In this document: positions 7,555 through 27,777 of the stretch, piece by piece
Position numbering within the stretch: the first letter of the stretch is position 1
How the letters are laid out: each line of letters starts with the position of its first letter
Origin: an uncultured Pelagibacteraceae bacterium
GTDB lineage: Bacteria > Pseudomonadota > Alphaproteobacteria > Pelagibacterales > Pelagibacteraceae
Direction: 5' to 3'
Length of the DNA: 42,183 bases
Assembly: GCA_902541745.1 (NCBI GenBank)
Contig: CACBRW010000008.1
Location: 1 to 42,183 of the forward strand
Translations under genes and position numbers: made by a program
Notes under the pieces: model-generated
Databases searched by the model: none
Told to the model about the DNA's origin: nothing
The model's input: the letters and a program-made list of their open reading frames with translations, nothing else

Positions 7555-7674
7555 TTATTTTTTTTTTCGTTTAAAGCTTCCCTTACCTTTTTTTGGCTTT
7601 ACTACCTTTTGTTTATATTTTTTTGAAAATAAATCTTTAGCTATAAGATTTTTTTTATTTAATTTTGTAACCAT
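7555..7674 (-). CDS. arfA: Small ArfA-like alternative ribosome-rescue factor
   Basis: A 39-residue ORF: ATG at 7674, TAA at 7555-7557. The protein reads MVTKLNKKNLIAKDLF then a basic stretch with KVVKPKKGKGSF and ends KRKKK. The DLF helix start, the VVKPKKGKGSF core and the following Arg/Lys tail match the central segment of ArfA (E. coli: [20 protein letters not shown]). ArfA recruits release factor 2 to ribosomes stalled on non-stop mRNA when trans-translation fails. Its start overlaps the end of the upstream winged-helix gene by 20 nt, suggesting coupled translation. The E. coli-type hydrophobic C-terminal extension is absent. The last codons form a run of ten A before the stop. The motif is seen; function is inferred from it. 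Confidence 0.72.
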   Translation of the reverse strand: MVTKLNKKNLIAKDLFSKKYKQKVVKPKKGKGSFKRKKK

Positions 7675-8215
7675 CTCTTTCACTAACAATAAATTCACTA
7701 TCCCCAAAATAATTTAAAATTTTTTTTCTTAATCTATAAACATGGGTTTCTACAGTATGTGTATCAAGTTTAGAATTAAAGCCCCAAACATTTTTTTGTA
7801 ATTCCTCAATTTTAACAGGCAAATTTGACTCAAAAAGATACGAAATTATAGCCGCTTCTTTTTCAGTTAATTTCAATTTTTTATTATTTTGTATAAAATA
7901 TCTTGAATTTAAATCCATAATGTATCTACCAATATTTATTTTAGATTTTTCATTAAATTTAACTTTTAAAAATTCGACGTTAACTTTTTCTAAAAACTTA
8001 GTAATTTTAATTGGAAAATCATCTAAAATTAATTGATTTACGTTTATTAATTTTGTTTTAGTGATTACTAATGAATTTTTGAATTCTCTTATTTTTTGCT
8101 CTAAAGTTGATTCATTTGAAACTTCAATAATTTTTAAGTTTAAATCATTATCAAGTTCCTTAATAATTTCATATAGTGATTTAAATTTAAATATGATTAA
8201 AATTTGTTTATCCAT
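7655..8215 (-). CDS. Orphan OmpR-type winged-helix regulator with degenerate receiver
   Basis: 186 residues. The last 80 or so form a Trans_reg_C (OmpR/PhoB) winged helix: KLTEKEAAIISYLFE, then VWGFNSKLDTHTVETHVYRLRKKI, ending SERDGYKIK. This is a DNA-binding output domain. The first 100 residues have the size of a receiver domain, but I cannot find the acidic pocket or the phosphorylatable Asp context, so it probably does not respond to a histidine kinase in the normal way. It is divergent from the YkuD-type gene with only 14 bp between start codons, so each promoter must lie inside the other gene or be shared. The ArfA-like ORF overlaps its 3' end. Confidence 0.82.
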   Translation of the reverse strand: MDKQILIIFKFKSLYEIIKELDNDLNLKIIEVSNESTLEQKIREFKNSLVITKTKLINVNQLILDDFPIKITKFLEKVNVEFLKVKFNEKSKINIGRYIMDLNSRYFIQNNKKLKLTEKEAAIISYLFESNLPVKIEELQKNVWGFNSKLDTHTVETHVYRLRKKILNYFGDSEFIVSERDGYKIK

Positions 8216-14718: not shown

Positions 14719-15700
14719 AAGTTTCGAAACTAATAAAATTAACCCTAAATTTAATTCTCTAATTCTATTATACGGTAAGAACGAAGGCTTAAAAAATCAA
14801 GTAATAGCTGACTTACTTAAAAATAAAACAAATAAAGAAAGCTATGAGGAAAAAGATATTCTGAATAGTGCTAATGATTTTATTGAAGGTTTATTAACAA
14901 ATTCACTTTTTGAAAATGAAAAGATTATTATCATTAAAAGAGTCACAGATAAAATTTTAAAAATTATAGAAGAAATAAAAAAAAAAAATTTAGATAACCT
15001 GATAATAATTCTTAATGCGGATTTACTTGATAAAAAATCAAAATTAAGAATTTTATTTGAAAAAGATAAAGAAGACATCTGCATACCAATTTATCCAGAT
15101 AATAATCAAACTTTAACTAAAATAATTCTCTCTTTTTTTAAAGAAAAAAATATTCATATATCTCAAACTAATATTAACCTAATTTTAAGTAAATCAAATG
15201 GAGATAGAGAAAATTTACAAAATGAATTAAAAAAAATTGAGTCTTTATGTTTAACAAGAAAAGTAATTACAGCGGAAGATATAAGTAAAATAACCAATCT
15301 TATAGAAAATCATAGTATTTCAGAATTAGCTGACAATTGTTTAGCTAAAAATAAAAAAAAAATAATTAAAATATTTAATGAAAATAATTTTAATAATGAA
15401 GATTATATTTTAATAGTCAGAACATTATTAAATAAATCAAAAAAAATTTTAAAATTATCGTATGAATTTCAAAAAAATAAAAATCTTGATTTAACTATTA
15501 CATCTTCTAAACCACCAATATTTTGGAAAGAAAAAGAAATCACAAAACAACAATTACTACAATGGAAACCAGATGACATAAGAAGGTTTATTTACGAAAT
15601 AAATGACCTTGAGCTTCACATAAAGAAGAATATTAGCAATTCAATTAACATACTATCAAATTTTATTTTAGAAAAATCTAATTCACAAGTTAATAGTTAG
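14708..15700 (+). CDS. holA: DNA polymerase III delta subunit
   Basis: 330 residues, typical size. The delta subunit opens the beta clamp as part of the clamp loader. The N-terminal AAA+-like domain begins FNSLILLYGKNEGLKNQVIADLL, with an acidic central stretch LIIILNADLLDKKSKLRILFE. A C-terminal helical collar follows (ISELADNCLAKNKKKIIKIFNE). Identity rests on this pattern plus the leuS-lptE-holA order. It is very Lys/Asn/Ile-rich. The 3' end overlaps the convergent parB gene by 11 nt. Confidence 0.9.
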   Translation: MIIKSFETNKINPKFNSLILLYGKNEGLKNQVIADLLKNKTNKESYEEKDILNSANDFIEGLLTNSLFENEKIIIIKRVTDKILKIIEEIKKKNLDNLIIILNADLLDKKSKLRILFEKDKEDICIPIYPDNNQTLTKIILSFFKEKNIHISQTNINLILSKSNGDRENLQNELKKIESLCLTRKVITAEDISKITNLIENHSISELADNCLAKNKKKIIKIFNENNFNNEDYILIVRTLLNKSKKILKLSYEFQKNKNLDLTITSSKPPIFWKEKEITKQQLLQWKPDDIRRFIYEINDLELHIKKNISNSINILSNFILEKSNSQVNS

Positions 15701-16532
15701 ATTTGATTATATCTATGATTTTATTCAATTGATCTAAATCTTTATACTCAAATGATATTTTACCCTTATTTCTTTTGTTGTTTTGTATATCTACGTTCAA
15801 ACCAATCTTATTAGATATAGATAGCTCAAGTGCAAGGATGTTAGTATCTTTAGTATTTTTAGATCTTTGTTTCTTAGTTTTAAATAATTGAACAAAACTT
15901 TCGGCTTGCCTAACAGAAAGTTTTTTTTCTATTATTTTATTCGCTACAAAGCTAGCATTTTCTAAACCAACTAAAATTTTGGCGTGACCTGAGGTTATCT
16001 TTTGTTTTTCGATTAATTTTATTACATCGTCGGGCAAAGTTAACAATCTTAGGGAATTTGATATATAACTTCTGCTTTTTCCAACAAACTTTGATACTTT
16101 CTCTTGATCATAAGAAAATTCATCTATTAATCTTTTATATCCTTGTGCTTCTTCAAGAGGATTTAAATCGTGCCTTTGAACATTTTCTACAATCGCAAAT
16201 TCCAAAGATTTTAAGTCATCTGCTTCTGTAATAACAACAGGTACATTATGAAGCCCAGCTCTTTGAGCTGCTAACCATCTTCTCTCACCAGCAATAATCT
16301 CAAACTTAGATCTATCATTATTTGAATTTCTGACAATAATAGGTTGGATCATTCCTCTTTCTTTAATTGAATTAGTTAAATCTTCTAAACTAGACTCATC
16401 AAATATTTTCCTTGGTTGATACTTATTAGGGACCAAGTCACCAATTGATAATTGATTTTTTTGAGTCTCAACTTTTGTTTCCCCAATCAAAGATGATAGG
16501 CCTCTACCTAAGCCTTTTTTAATTTTATCCAT
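15690..16532 (-). CDS. parB: Chromosome-partitioning protein ParB
   Basis: 280 residues. A CTP-dependent DNA clamp that loads at parS and spreads along the origin region. The N-terminus KKGLGRGLSSLIG is typical. The CTP-binding domain includes PRKIFDESSLEDLTNSI and IAGERRWLAAQRAG near 80-95. The helix-turn-helix lies at about 125-150 (DQEKVSKFVGKSRSYISNSLRLL). A C-terminal dimerisation segment ends the protein. It directly follows parA with a 1-base overlap. A perfect parS lies about 1.4 kb upstream inside rsmG. Confidence 0.97.
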   Translation of the reverse strand: MDKIKKGLGRGLSSLIGETKVETQKNQLSIGDLVPNKYQPRKIFDESSLEDLTNSIKERGMIQPIIVRNSNNDRSKFEIIAGERRWLAAQRAGLHNVPVVITEADDLKSLEFAIVENVQRHDLNPLEEAQGYKRLIDEFSYDQEKVSKFVGKSRSYISNSLRLLTLPDDVIKLIEKQKITSGHAKILVGLENASFVANKIIEKKLSVRQAESFVQLFKTKKQRSKNTKDTNILALELSISNKIGLNVDIQNNKRNKGKISFEYKDLDQLNKIIDIIKSNY

Positions 16533-17326
16533 TAAGCAGCACTACCAATTTGTGACTCTTGACTCATAAACTCGTCAGTAAAACTAAAATAAGATTTGCT
16601 TCCAGGACATGTTTTATCGTAGATTAATACAGGCACACCATGAGAAGGTGCTTCTGAAAGTCTTACATTCCTTGGTATTACAGTAGAATAAACTTTTTCA
16701 TTAAAATAGTCTCTAGCTTCTTTCTCAACTTGTGATGAAAGCTTATTTCTTTTGTCATACATAGTTAAAAGTATACCTCTGATTTTCAAATCTGGATTTA
16801 AACTTATTTTTATCCTTTCGATTGTTTTCATGAGCTGGGTTAAACCCTCTAAAGCAAAAAATTCAGTCTGAAGTGGTACCAATAGTGAGTTTGAACTTAC
16901 AAGGGCCATTACTGTTAACAAGCTCAATGAAGGTGGACAATCAATCAATACATAATCATATATACCTCTAGAATTGTTTAAATATGAGGCTAATTTAGTC
17001 TTCAGTATAAATGCCCTGTTACTATCATCAGCCGTCTCTACTTCTAAGCCCGATAAATCTACATTTGATGTAATAATATCTAAATTTTCAAATTGTGTTT
17101 TTTTAATCGCCTGACTGATTTCTTTGGTTCCATTCAATACTCCATAGATTGTATCGCTTGAGCTCTCCATATTAGATAATCCCAGACCTGTGGTAGCATT
17201 ACCTTGAGGATCTAGGTCAATTACTAAAATTTTTTTGTCTATCTGAGATAAACCAGCAGCAAGATTTATCACAGTTGTAGTTTTTCCGACCCCACCCTTT
17301 TGATTTATAACTGAAATAATTTGCAT
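16532..17326 (-). CDS. parA: Chromosome-partitioning ATPase ParA
   Basis: 264 residues. A deviant Walker A ATPase that moves ParB-bound origins. KGGVGKTTT lies at 10-18 (signature Lys10 and Lys15), DLDPQGNATTGLG near 38-50 and the Walker B-type YVLIDCPPSLSLLT near 121. It starts 20 bp after rsmG. It is co-oriented with mnmG-rsmG-parA-parB, the conserved gidA-gidB-parAB cluster, which fits coordination of segregation near the origin. Confidence 0.98.
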   Translation of the reverse strand: MQIISVINQKGGVGKTTTVINLAAGLSQIDKKILVIDLDPQGNATTGLGLSNMESSSDTIYGVLNGTKEISQAIKKTQFENLDIITSNVDLSGLEVETADDSNRAFILKTKLASYLNNSRGIYDYVLIDCPPSLSLLTVMALVSSNSLLVPLQTEFFALEGLTQLMKTIERIKISLNPDLKIRGILLTMYDKRNKLSSQVEKEARDYFNEKVYSTVIPRNVRLSEAPSHGVPVLIYDKTCPGSKSYFSFTDEFMSQESQIGSAA

Positions 17327-21332: not shown

Positions 21333-22886
21333 TTATAAGTTGGTATCAAGAATGTTAAACATCTCAGATAAATATTCTGCGTAAGGTTCATTAGATTGAA
21401 TTGAAGACTTATAAATAGGTTTACTAGCTTGAGCAACGCTTACTGTTTGAACTGGGGTTTTTTTATTTTTGTGGAAATTTAAGCATTCTGGATCCCATGG
21501 AAGATCACAAAATGAAATTATTTTTTTAACTTCTTGCTCCGGTGCGTTTATGATTTTTTCATAATTTGCATCAAAAATGTCATTTTTAAATTTAGATTTC
21601 CAGTAATCCATTAGTCTCGAATATAAAATATATTGTTCAGCTATATCTTTTTGATCGTATGCCCAAGACATAGTAGGAGATGAAAAATGATTTTTAAAAA
21701 TTGATAGACAATTATCTTTGGGATTTCTAAAACAGTGAATAATCTTGCTGTTAGGAAAAAAAATTTTAATAAATCCAATCCACATAAAATTTTGTGGGGC
21801 TTTATCAGTTACAAAATTTGATTTAAAATTGTGAAAACTTATTAAATTATTGTACTTTTTAAATATTTGATTTTCCGAATTTTTTATTTCATCAAGTATT
21901 TTTGATTTATTAAATTTTATACCTTCTAAAAAATTATTTTTTATAATCTCTGATAGATAATGAATTTCACCTGCACCCTCAACAGAATTATGAGATGCTA
22001 CCATTTGTTCAATCAAAGTAGTTCCAGATCTTGGCATTCCACAAATGAAAATATTTTTGTTTAGGTTATTTGGTTTAGGCTTTGTAATATCAATATTATC
22101 AAAAATATTTATAATATTATCAAATAGTTTTTTTGTATTTTCTAACACATGAGTTTGATCGTGTTTTTGAGTTAAATTTGCTTTTTTTAAAAATTGAAAA
22201 GAATTTTCATAATCTTTAAGATCCTCATACGCTTTTCCTAAAGCAAAAAAAAGTTCTGTTTTTTGATTGGAATTTAAACTTTTGTCATCAATAAATCTCT
22301 TCATCTCAGCTAAATGCGTCTGATCTTTATTATAATTAATCATTGTACTTAAAAGCTTGTGCGCATTTGTATTAAAGGGTTGAATATCAAGAATTTTTGA
22401 AAGATAATTTTTTGCGTCATTCATTTCTCCAATACTCTGGCAACAAACAGCAAGATTTAATAAAAGATTAATGTTTTTAGGTTCTATTTTAAGACCTTTT
22501 AACAGTAATTTCTTTGCTTCTTGATATTGATTGATTTCTCTTTTCAAATTTGCGTAATTATTTAAAGCTTTAACATTTGCAACGTCATTTCTAATGATTG
22601 TTTTGTATAGATTTTCAGCCTCTTCAAACTCAAATAAATTTTTATAGGAATTTGCTAAATTATTCATTGCTGCATAATTATCCTTTTGAGCTGATAATGC
22701 TTTATTGAAGCAAATAATTGATTTTTTTACTTGATTACATTGCTGTAAAATTAAACCCTGCAAATTAAAAAGATAAGAATTATTTGGAAATTTCTTTACT
22801 AAACTCTCACATTTTGACAATGCTTGAGAAAATTTATTTAAACTTATTAAATTATTTATTTCGACTATTCTGTTTTTAAAATCCAT
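21333..22886 (-). CDS. TPR-sulfotransferase fusion protein
   Basis: 517 residues. Residues 1 to about 240 are tetratricopeptide repeats (YAAMNNLANSYKNLFEFEEA, ALNNYANLKREINQYQEA). The rest is a PAPS-dependent sulfotransferase: 5'-phosphosulphate loop CGMPRSGTTLIEQ at about 282-294, a DKAPQNF stretch, and 3'-phosphate site HCFRNPKDNCLSIFKNHFSS. The pattern resembles the protein-tyrosine-sulfotransferase-like family frequent in marine alphaproteobacteria. It may sulphate a protein or glycan; the target is unknown and no signal peptide is seen. It sits between rho and mnmE, which are near-adjacent in many alphaproteobacteria, so it is probably an acquired insert. Confidence 0.87.
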   Translation of the reverse strand: MDFKNRIVEINNLISLNKFSQALSKCESLVKKFPNNSYLFNLQGLILQQCNQVKKSIICFNKALSAQKDNYAAMNNLANSYKNLFEFEEAENLYKTIIRNDVANVKALNNYANLKREINQYQEAKKLLLKGLKIEPKNINLLLNLAVCCQSIGEMNDAKNYLSKILDIQPFNTNAHKLLSTMINYNKDQTHLAEMKRFIDDKSLNSNQKTELFFALGKAYEDLKDYENSFQFLKKANLTQKHDQTHVLENTKKLFDNIINIFDNIDITKPKPNNLNKNIFICGMPRSGTTLIEQMVASHNSVEGAGEIHYLSEIIKNNFLEGIKFNKSKILDEIKNSENQIFKKYNNLISFHNFKSNFVTDKAPQNFMWIGFIKIFFPNSKIIHCFRNPKDNCLSIFKNHFSSPTMSWAYDQKDIAEQYILYSRLMDYWKSKFKNDIFDANYEKIINAPEQEVKKIISFCDLPWDPECLNFHKNKKTPVQTVSVAQASKPIYKSSIQSNEPYAEYLSEMFNILDTNL

Positions 22887-24686: not shown

Positions 24687-25682
24687 TCAGACATTTCTTT
24701 CAATTAAGGACTTTAGTAAAATGATGTGATCATTATTATCATTTAAACAGGGGATCATGTCAAAATTTTCTCCTCCTGAATTTAAAAAACTTTCTTTAGC
24801 TTGAATTTTAATTTCTTCTAAAGTTTCTACACAATCTGATGCAAAGCCTGGACAGATTGTAAGAACATTTTTGACACCCTCTGCGGGCAGGTTTTCTAAA
24901 GTCTTATCGGTATATGGTTGAAGCCATTCTTGTGGACCAAATCTTGACTGAAATGTAGTTTTAATTTTAATAGAATTAAATTTTTCTGAAATCAATCTTG
25001 TCGTTTTATGACAATAGCAATGATAAGGATCACCTTTATCGAAATATTTTTTTGGTATTCCATGATAAGAAGCAATGATAAGATCTGGTTTCCAACTGAT
25101 TTCATTTATTTTTTTATTGATAGAATTAACAAGTGCATCAATGTAGAGCGGATCAGATTCATAGTGAGGAATTATTTTTAAAGAAGGCTGCCACCTCATT
25201 TTCATTAAAGTTCTGTATACCTCATCACAAACTGTTGCCGTCGTGGCTGCCGCATATTGTGGATAAAGAGGAAGTATCACCAAGTTTTCACAGCCCATTT
25301 TGTGTAATTTATGAATCTTGCTCTTAATGCTAGGATTTCCATACCTCATAGCAAAATCTACAATAATGTTTTCTTTTGATATAAAATTTGAAATTTTCTC
25401 ACTTTGCTTTTTCGTATAATATAGAAGTGGTGAAATGTTTTCATCCTTCATCCATATTTCTTTATAAGCTTTAGCGGTTTTAGAGGGTCTAAAATTTAAA
25501 ATAAACAAATTCAAAATTATTTGCCAAAGGAATGGGTTTACCTCGATGACTCTTCTATCAGAAAGAAACTCTCTTAAATATTTTCTAATATCCAGCCAGT
25601 TAGTAGAATCGGGTGTGCCTAAGTTAATTATAAGCACACCTGTATTACCATATTTTATAGGCGGATGTTTTTTTTCAATCAT
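24687..25682 (-). CDS. hemH: Ferrochelatase
   Basis: 331 residues. It inserts Fe2+ into protoporphyrin IX. The N-terminal GVLIINLGTPDSTN, the ASYHGIPKKYFDKGDPYHCYC block with the metal-handling His, the FQSRFGPQEWLQPYTD stretch and CPGFASDCVETLEEI with catalytic Glu are all present. It starts inside the end of hemE (4-nt overlap, ATGA), so hemE-hemH are likely translationally coupled. Confidence 0.97.
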   Translation of the reverse strand: MIEKKHPPIKYGNTGVLIINLGTPDSTNWLDIRKYLREFLSDRRVIEVNPFLWQIILNLFILNFRPSKTAKAYKEIWMKDENISPLLYYTKKQSEKISNFISKENIIVDFAMRYGNPSIKSKIHKLHKMGCENLVILPLYPQYAAATTATVCDEVYRTLMKMRWQPSLKIIPHYESDPLYIDALVNSINKKINEISWKPDLIIASYHGIPKKYFDKGDPYHCYCHKTTRLISEKFNSIKIKTTFQSRFGPQEWLQPYTDKTLENLPAEGVKNVLTICPGFASDCVETLEEIKIQAKESFLNSGGENFDMIPCLNDNNDHIILLKSLIERNV

Positions 25683-26683
25683 TTAAAATCTTTTACAATT
25701 TTAATTAAGTTTTCAACCATTTCTGGTTTTGTTTCAGGTAAAATACCATGACCAAGATTAAATATATATGGATGATCACGAAAAATTTCTAAATACTTAA
25801 GTGTTTCTTTCTTTAATGTTTCTCTGTCTGTTAATAAAATTTTAGGATCTAAACCACCTTGAATAGGTATTTTTATTTCTCTAAGCATTTTTTTTGGATC
25901 AACATTATAATCAATATTAACGGCATCGGGTTTAACGATATCACAAAACTCTTTATAATTTTTTATTTCTCTAGGGAAACATATCACTGGCACATTTAAA
26001 GATTTTGTATAATTTACTAAGTTTAAAGTTGGTGAATAAACATAATTAGGTAAATCTTTTTCCTCTAACAATCCTGCCCAACTATCAAAAATTTGGATTA
26101 TGTTTGCACCACTTTCAATTTGATTTTTTATATGAACCTTTAGAAATTTTTCAATAATTAATAAAATTCTATTTATTAAAAAATCATCTTTAAAAAAATC
26201 TTTTTTCAAATTTTTTTTAGGTGACTGTTGATTGACCATATAAACTAATAATGTCCACGGAGCGCCAATAAAACCAATAGTATTTTTATTTTTTAAACTA
26301 TTATTTGAGCTAACTTTTTTTATTGCCTTATATACACGGTGTATTTTTTCTACAAAATCAATTTCATCAGTTTTAGTAATTTCGTTTAGATTTAATTCAC
26401 CTAATCTTGGCCCAAAGTTTTTTTCAAATTCTATTTTTTGACCTAATCCATATGGAAGCATTAAAATATCTGAAAATATAATTGCAGCATCTAAATCAAA
26501 TCTTCTTAAAGGTTGTAATGTTATTTCTGAAGATAAATTATCATCTAAACATAAATTAATAAAATTTGGATTTTTTTTTCTAATTTCTCTAAATTCTGGT
26601 AGATATCTTCCTGCCTGTCTCATAATCCATATAGGATTAAAAGAAGTATCTTTACTAGTTATTATCTTGTTTAAAGGTTTCAT
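25679..26683 (-). CDS. hemE: Uroporphyrinogen decarboxylase
   Basis: 334 residues. It decarboxylates uroporphyrinogen III to coproporphyrinogen III. WIMRQAGRYLPEFRE near 19-33 is the first signature. ALDAAIIFSDIL-type residues follow (DLDAAIIFSDILMLPYGLG), then GFIGAPWTLLVYM and the C-terminal NLGHGILPETKPEMV. It is the first gene of a long leftward run. Its ATG is the left edge of the origin candidate, as hemE is in Caulobacter and Rickettsia. Confidence 0.97.
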   Translation of the reverse strand: MKPLNKIITSKDTSFNPIWIMRQAGRYLPEFREIRKKNPNFINLCLDDNLSSEITLQPLRRFDLDAAIIFSDILMLPYGLGQKIEFEKNFGPRLGELNLNEITKTDEIDFVEKIHRVYKAIKKVSSNNSLKNKNTIGFIGAPWTLLVYMVNQQSPKKNLKKDFFKDDFLINRILLIIEKFLKVHIKNQIESGANIIQIFDSWAGLLEEKDLPNYVYSPTLNLVNYTKSLNVPVICFPREIKNYKEFCDIVKPDAVNIDYNVDPKKMLREIKIPIQGGLDPKILLTDRETLKKETLKYLEIFRDHPYIFNLGHGILPETKPEMVENLIKIVKDFK

Positions 26684-26949
26684 AAATAAGTATTATTAAT
26701 TATTGTAGTTGTAATATATCTTGTGAATAAAGGTGATTACTTTTTATAAACATTATATTCACAGTTTACTAACATCTTGTGTGGTTAAAATTGTTTAAAA
26801 TGAAGCTTTTTTATCATATCAATTTTTGTGGATTGTTTTACCCTATTTACTATTAATGTTAATAAATAGCGGTTTTTACAAGGTAAATTTATTAAATTTT
26901 AAATTGTGTAATTTAATTAAAATAATACAAATTTATTAACAATTTATTC
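26684..26949. other. Probable chromosomal replication origin (oriC)
   Basis: The longest non-coding gap of the window, 266 bp, between divergent hemE and the DUF299 gene. It holds a perfect DnaA box TTATTCACA (minus, 26722-26730), two single-mismatch boxes (ATATTCACA plus 26755-26763; TTAACCACA minus 26780-26788) and a weaker one (CAATCCACA minus 26827-26835). To the right are a near-perfect palindrome TATTAATGTTAATA (26851-26864) and a long AT-only-like stretch (about 26881-26948) that could be the unwinding element. Genes run away from it on both sides. The hemE-DUF299 location matches the established Caulobacter and Rickettsia origin. Boxes and strand pattern are seen; function is inferred. 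Confidence 0.7.
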
Positions 26950-27777
26950 ATGAGTAATACATATCAAATATATTTAATTTCTGACTCAACCGGTGAAACT
27001 TTAGATAGAATATTTTTAGCCCTAAAGGCGCAATTTTTAAATATAGAATATAAAGTTCATTCTTATTCTTTTACAAGGACAGAAAATCAAATTCTAAAAA
27101 TTCTAGAAGATGCAAAAAAAAATAAAAATTCAATAATCTTATATACAATCGTGGATAACAGCTTGGCTAAATATCTTGCGAATGTGAGCGAGGATAAAAA
27201 TATTCCATGTTTTGGCGTTTTAGGAAATTTAATTTTAAATTTTTCAAAAATATTAAATCAAAGAGCAACACACGAGCCAAGTGGCCAACATATATTGAAT
27301 GAAGAGTATTATGATAGAATTGAAGCAATTCAGTTTACAATGAATCATGATGACGGAAATTTGATAAATGAGGTGAGCAAATCAGACATCATTCTTGTAG
27401 GAGTAAGCAGAACAAGCAAAACACCAACCTCTATTTATTTAGCCAACAAAGGTTTTAAAACGTCAAACATTCCTTTAGTAAATGAAAATTCTTTGCCAGA
27501 GTCCCTTAAACAAAATCCACAAATGACATGCGTTGTAGGACTAAGTACTGAGCCAGAAAGATTAGCTGATTTGAGAAAAAATAGAATGAACTCTCTAAAA
27601 GAAATAGAAAATATTGAATATACAGATTTAGATAATATTAAAAAAGAGGTCTTACAAGCAAAAAAAACGTTTCAAAAATATAAATGGCCTCTTATAGACG
27701 TAACGAGAAAGTCAGTCGAAGAAACAGCAGCCTCTATAATTAAAATTCACGAAATATATTTAAACAATGTTAAATAA
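26950..27777 (+). CDS. Pyruvate,phosphate dikinase / PEP synthase regulatory protein (DUF299 family)
   Basis: 275 residues. The family is a bifunctional serine/threonine kinase and Pi-dependent pyrophosphorylase that switches PPDK or PEP synthase off and on. The start IYLISDSTGETLDRIFLA, the P-loop-like GVSRTSKTPTSIYLANKG at about 151-168, GLSTEPERLADLRKNRM and DVTRKSVEETAASI match it. Which enzyme it controls cannot be told from this window. First gene right of the origin; it overlaps maf by 11 nt. Confidence 0.95.
   Translation: MSNTYQIYLISDSTGETLDRIFLALKAQFLNIEYKVHSYSFTRTENQILKILEDAKKNKNSIILYTIVDNSLAKYLANVSEDKNIPCFGVLGNLILNFSKILNQRATHEPSGQHILNEEYYDRIEAIQFTMNHDDGNLINEVSKSDIILVGVSRTSKTPTSIYLANKGFKTSNIPLVNENSLPESLKQNPQMTCVVGLSTEPERLADLRKNRMNSLKEIENIEYTDLDNIKKEVLQAKKTFQKYKWPLIDVTRKSVEETAASIIKIHEIYLNNVK

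Follow-up and report, generated by a model that had tools for sequence, protein, structure and literature searches.

The window analyzed here is a stretch of 42,183 nucleotides, and its largest intergenic gap (266 bp; the runner-up is 216 bp) lies between two divergent genes, hemE and a DUF299 gene (Table 1). On the minus strand to the left are parB, parA, an ORF in the gidB position (named by position alone), mnmG, mnmE, a TPR-sulfotransferase gene, rho, UPF0093, hemH, and hemE; on the plus strand to the right are the DUF299 gene, maf, aroE, coaE, and dnaQ. All genes from parB through dnaQ are thus directed away from the gap, as the first-pass annotation had stated in pointing to this gap as the largest of the window. 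The TPR-sulfotransferase gene (21333-22886) sits between mnmE and rho, in a cluster otherwise typical of the origin side. In named collections, the DUF299 protein has close relatives of up to 97% identity, which belong to the Pelagibacteraceae (SAR11).

Table 1. Features of the hemE-DUF299 gap and its flanks (identities refer to the window and its near relatives, 80 aligned sequences)
Feature	Position	Strand	Basis or remark
Predicted oriC, intergenic gap between hemE and DUF299	26684..26949	.	size, box cluster, orthologous gap at skew minimum, conserved length
hemE, left boundary gene	25679..26683	-	PF01208
DUF299/COG1806 kinase-pyrophosphorylase gene, right boundary	26950..27777	+	PF03618
parB and parA, chromosome partition, 9 kb left of gap	15690..17326	-	PF17762/PF02195 and PF13614
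AT-rich TAG/TTG trinucleotide track by hemE-side box, candidate DnaA-trio/unwinding site	26695..26720	+	97% identity
DnaA box TTATTCACA, exact, hemE-side	26722..26730	-	100% identity
DnaA box TTATAAACA	26744..26752	+	98% identity
DnaA box ATATTCACA, tandem with 26744 box	26755..26763	+	96% identity
TTAACCACA, one mismatch, not conserved	26780..26788	-	68% identity
TGTTTAAAATGAAGCTTTTT, longest near-invariant run of gap	26792..26811	+	not a DnaA box
Weak DnaA-box-like CAATCCACA, two mismatches, conserved	26827..26835	-	97.5%
DnaA box TTATTAACA	26857..26865	-	99% identity
DnaA box TTATTAACA, eight bases 5' of DUF299 start codon	26933..26941	+	96% identity

The gap has a GC content of 18.4% (81.6% AT), against 28.3% for the window. 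Six sites within it match TTATNCACA with at most one mismatch, one exactly and five with a single mismatch. Markov shuffles gave a mean of 0.88 such sites and none of 1000 reached six; the count in the gap is also the maximum over all 266-bp windows of the stretch, indicating a box cluster beyond chance. In the alignment of 80 sequences, the boxes at 26722, 26744, 26755, 26857, and 26933 are 96-100% identical, compared with 90% for the whole gap, and their conservation exceeds that of random 9-mers of the gap (0.977 versus 0.898, p = 0.003). The site at 26780 (TTAACCACA), conserved at only 68%, is probably a chance match and was dropped as a DnaA box. The first-pass annotation had counted one exact and two single-mismatch boxes within 67 bp; the exact box stands, and the interval 26722-26788 holds three single-mismatch sites, including the discarded one.

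The gap contains not one short palindrome, as first noted, but several, as would be expected in AT-rich DNA. It is not the least stable duplex of the window, since 1193 other 266-bp windows are less stable, and a search for an ncRNA or tRNA inside it found none. A second match to the gap in the same genome, on contig C27, covers only 48 bp of the right end at 83% identity and was judged a chance match between AT-rich sequences.

Chromosomal position and persistence of the gap

The window is one contig (C8) of a genome in 55 contigs; skew was therefore read from a closed genome of the same genus (G003; 1,343,202 bp), in which the orthologous gap occupies 1,261,949-1,262,209. Its cumulative GC skew has a flat minimum at 1.24-1.30 Mb, about 60 kb broad, that includes the gap, and a maximum at 615,774. 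The lowest point of the GC skew lies 28.6 kb from the gap on one side and the AT-skew minimum 31 kb on the other, and both maxima fall at 616-621 kb, nearly opposite to the gap. Cumulative GC skew had been suggested at the outset as a check on the origin; run on this relative, it places the gap on the minimum as predicted. Two other genera were sampled coarsely, in 60-kb steps. In G066, where the gap is at 1.09 Mb, skew is -0.18 at 1.02 Mb and +0.05 at 1.08 Mb; in G062, whose gap is at 141 kb, it is -0.03 at 130-150 kb and +0.18 at 200 kb. The sign change falls in the gap-bearing sample itself or between this sample and the following one. A DnaA-type oriC is expected at the skew minimum, opposite the maximum; the closed genome G003 agrees with this, as do the samples of G062 and G066. 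Gene direction flips at the gap as well, so that skew and strand bias are not independent of each other.

The three TTATWMACA sites in the gap of G003 are the sole triple on its chromosome. The breadth of the skew minima, together with the distance of dnaA from the gap (about 64 kb in G003 and 70 kb in G062 and G066), would allow the true origin to lie elsewhere nearby, beside dnaA or parAB, with the cluster in the gap serving as a secondary DnaA-binding locus. However, the region upstream of dnaA in G003 has no such boxes, no other cluster on that chromosome is as dense as that of the gap, and the samples of G066 at 1.08-1.10 and 1.14 Mb, ahead of dnaA at the record start, already show positive skew. 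We consider an origin outside the gap highly improbable.

We then compared the gap with its counterparts in relatives. Its length is 261-289 bp across 59 Pelagibacteraceae loci, in which, as in the window, the boundary genes (PF01208 and PF03618) are those of the alphaproteobacterial hemE/COG1806 origin. In a sister family of the same order, DUF299 had no match in any of the 24 genomes searched, and close inspection of ten loci (L168-L177) showed a gap of about 275 bp separating hemE from maf. In genus g5 (G062), a 353-bp gap lies between DUF299 and rho, near the skew switch, and hemE is part of another haem operon some 580 kb distant. Since the gap stays while its boundary genes come and go, it appears to be functional itself rather than a mere divergent promoter, and this persistence beyond its neighbors is the strongest argument that the gap would have a function of its own. 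Divergent flanking genes and promoter-like hexamers would also be found if the gap were only the promoter region of hemE and DUF299, with DnaA boxes that merely regulate the two genes. But the promoter-like sites occur at chance level (5, versus 5.7 in shuffles), the length of the gap is kept where DUF299 is missing, the gap persists where hemE is located elsewhere, and skew switches at the gap. There is very little probability that promoter activity is its whole role.

Taken together, the box cluster, the GC skew of the closed relative, and the persistence of the gap support the initial suggestion of a probable oriC: we assign a probability of about 0.94 to the gap being the single bidirectional replication origin. 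It is very probably an ordinary DnaA-type origin at the standard alphaproteobacterial place, with a slightly altered DnaA recognition sequence. An oriC had been identified manually and marked on the map of HTCC1062 in a 2014 paper (PMC4033161); a search of the openly accessible literature found no paper naming Pelagibacter together with 'DnaA boxes'. SAR11 bacteria rank among the most abundant in the ocean. Estimating growth rates from the read depth of metagenomes requires a known origin, for which the gap would provide a fixed anchor.

Two observations on the flanking genes accompany this comparison. In L168-L177, maf-aroE-coaE-dnaQ is retained beside the origin gap, and DUF299 is absent. 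In genus g5 (L178 and L179; G062 and G065), hemE and hemH belong to a haem operon far from the origin, and this hemE, only about 30% identical to that of the window, was perhaps acquired from elsewhere.

The box variant of the clade and origin control sites

Counts over the 59 family gaps identified the box in common use. TTATTAACA, a candidate DnaA site by sequence with one mismatch to the classical box, is present in 48 of the 59 gaps, at a density of 4.94/kb as compared with 0.019/kb in other intergenic DNA of G003. TTATAAACA occurs in 32 and TTATTCACA in 27 of them, TTATTGACA in two, and TTATTTACA and the classical box TTATCCACA in one each. The enriched box of the Pelagibacteraceae is thus TTATTAACA, with TTATTCACA and TTATAAACA, and not TTATCCACA. 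These counts indicate that position 6 of the box takes A or C, not G or T; other A/T substitutions are less enriched, so AT pressure alone is insufficient to explain the enrichment of TTATTAACA. Boxes of the sister family mostly still have C at this position. The first-pass annotation missed that TTATTAACA is the usual box of the clade, which makes the sites it called single-mismatch the normal ones.

The dnaA gene was found, and the box-reading motif RDHTT of DnaA is kept in 10 of 10 sequences, indicating an intact box-reading helix. In the two positions just before its R, the sister family has GG, the genus of the window SN, and other genera TG or SG. A GG-to-SN change as the cause of the box variant is unsupported, because genus g5, with TG, also has A at position 6 (TTATAAACA).

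The Caulobacter origin, Cori, carries GANTC sites. In the gap of the window we found no GANTC, no IHF consensus site, and no full TTAA-N7-TTAA CtrA site, the last as initially reported. GANTC occurs twice in the 59 family gaps, against 8.5 expected from Markov shuffles, and is absent from ten sister-family gaps; in other intergenic DNA of G003 it is at expectation. Some relatives do have full TTAA-N7-TTAA matches, 31 over the 59 gaps where 15 would be expected; the TTAA inside TTATTAACA boxes is the probable reason. Counts over the 59 gaps derive from related sequences and are less independent than they look.

No CtrA was present among the regulators examined in the PF00486 proteins of G003: they scored at most 134 bits against the CtrA model (cut-off 350), one response regulator was above the PhoB cut-off, and the others best matched CreB/sortase-type and OmpR models. 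Similarly, Pelagibacter has been described as lacking ctrA (PMC2877005). Neither full CtrA sites in the gap of the window nor a CtrA protein in G003 was found, and GANTC sites are scarce at the origin even though a CcrM-like methylase is encoded (PMC3973325), which gives this scarcity some interest. The earlier suggestion of an origin simpler than that of Caulobacter holds in these respects. A 186-aa protein of the window (7655-8215) combines a winged helix of the OmpR/PhoB type with an N-terminal region poorly covered by any NCBIfam model; similar proteins occur in G001, G003, G005, and G009.

One tentative reading, which we rate as somewhat doubtful, is that SAR11 has a pared-down alphaproteobacterial origin: its DnaA would read a shifted box (A for C at position 6, TTATTAACA), and initiation would have been freed at the origin from both GANTC methylation and the binding of CtrA, so that DnaA alone may time replication. 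The altered box, together with the lack of CtrA and GANTC sites, yields a specific, testable prediction on replication timing in cells that lost CtrA.

Candidate unwinding site and comparison with known origins

To the left of the 26722 box, the plus strand is rich in TAG, GTA, and TTG. Over the leftmost 45 nt of 69 gaps, TAG outnumbers CTA by 128 to 7, and the rest of the gap has no such bias. The track runs in the direction expected of a DnaA-trio (3'-GAT-5') next to a box (PMC6669920, PMC8287927). As in the basal unwinding system of the Bacillus subtilis type (DnaA box, spacer, and DnaA-trios), a TAG/TTG track with strand bias borders the hemE-side box in the expected polarity, a 5'-TAG track and then the box, in the TGTGNATAA reading. 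The strict rule for that system calls for three or more consecutive NAN trios (3'-5') no farther than 16 bp from a box; the sequence beside the 26722 box does not satisfy it, and unwinding here is a prediction. The rule is passed by 41 of 58 family gaps, against 32.8 by shuffling; being weakly informative in such AT-rich DNA, it was rejected as proof of an unwinding site. We propose the TAG track as a DnaA-trio-like unwinding site.

In the mechanism that we propose, DnaA would bind boxes of the form TTAT(T/A)(A/C)ACA at either end of the gap and oligomerize from the hemE-side box onto the adjoining AT-rich TAG/TTG strand (26684-26720), which the oligomer would open for loading of the helicase. 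The DUF299-side boxes might serve to concentrate DnaA locally or to form a loop, and may additionally act on the divergent promoters. At the origin itself, CtrA repression would be absent and a GANTC methylation switch would play little or no part. At 26792-26811 lies TGTTTAAAATGAAGCTTTTT; a GAAGCT core is identically positioned in about 15 of the 59 wider gaps, and the window's own genome has no second copy of the run at one mismatch or fewer.

The hemE/COG1806 location is an established origin site in Caulobacter and has been applied to Rickettsia (PMC1914354), as the first-pass annotation had stated, and the gap of the window would be a further case of this known type. Caulobacter crescentus Cori (hemE - CC0001/COG1806) shares the boundary genes and, like the gap of the window, has its DnaA boxes in AT-rich intergenic DNA of a few hundred bp. 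Cori, however, is 404 bp long and includes an IHF site and five CtrA sites (PMC1914354), whereas the 266-bp gap of the window has no full CtrA site, consensus IHF site, or GANTC. The Rickettsia prowazekii origin (hemE - RP001/COG1806) likewise shares both boundary genes and has a similar AT content (82.55%, versus 81.6% in the gap of the window), but is longer, at 384 bp, and CtrA sites, of which the gap of the window has none, have been reported for Rickettsia origins (PMC1914354). In Wolbachia and Ehrlichia (hemE - COG1253), one boundary gene has likewise been swapped while the origin remains beside hemE; here, by contrast, the changes are the absence of DUF299, with maf as the neighbor, or of hemE, with rho as the neighbor.
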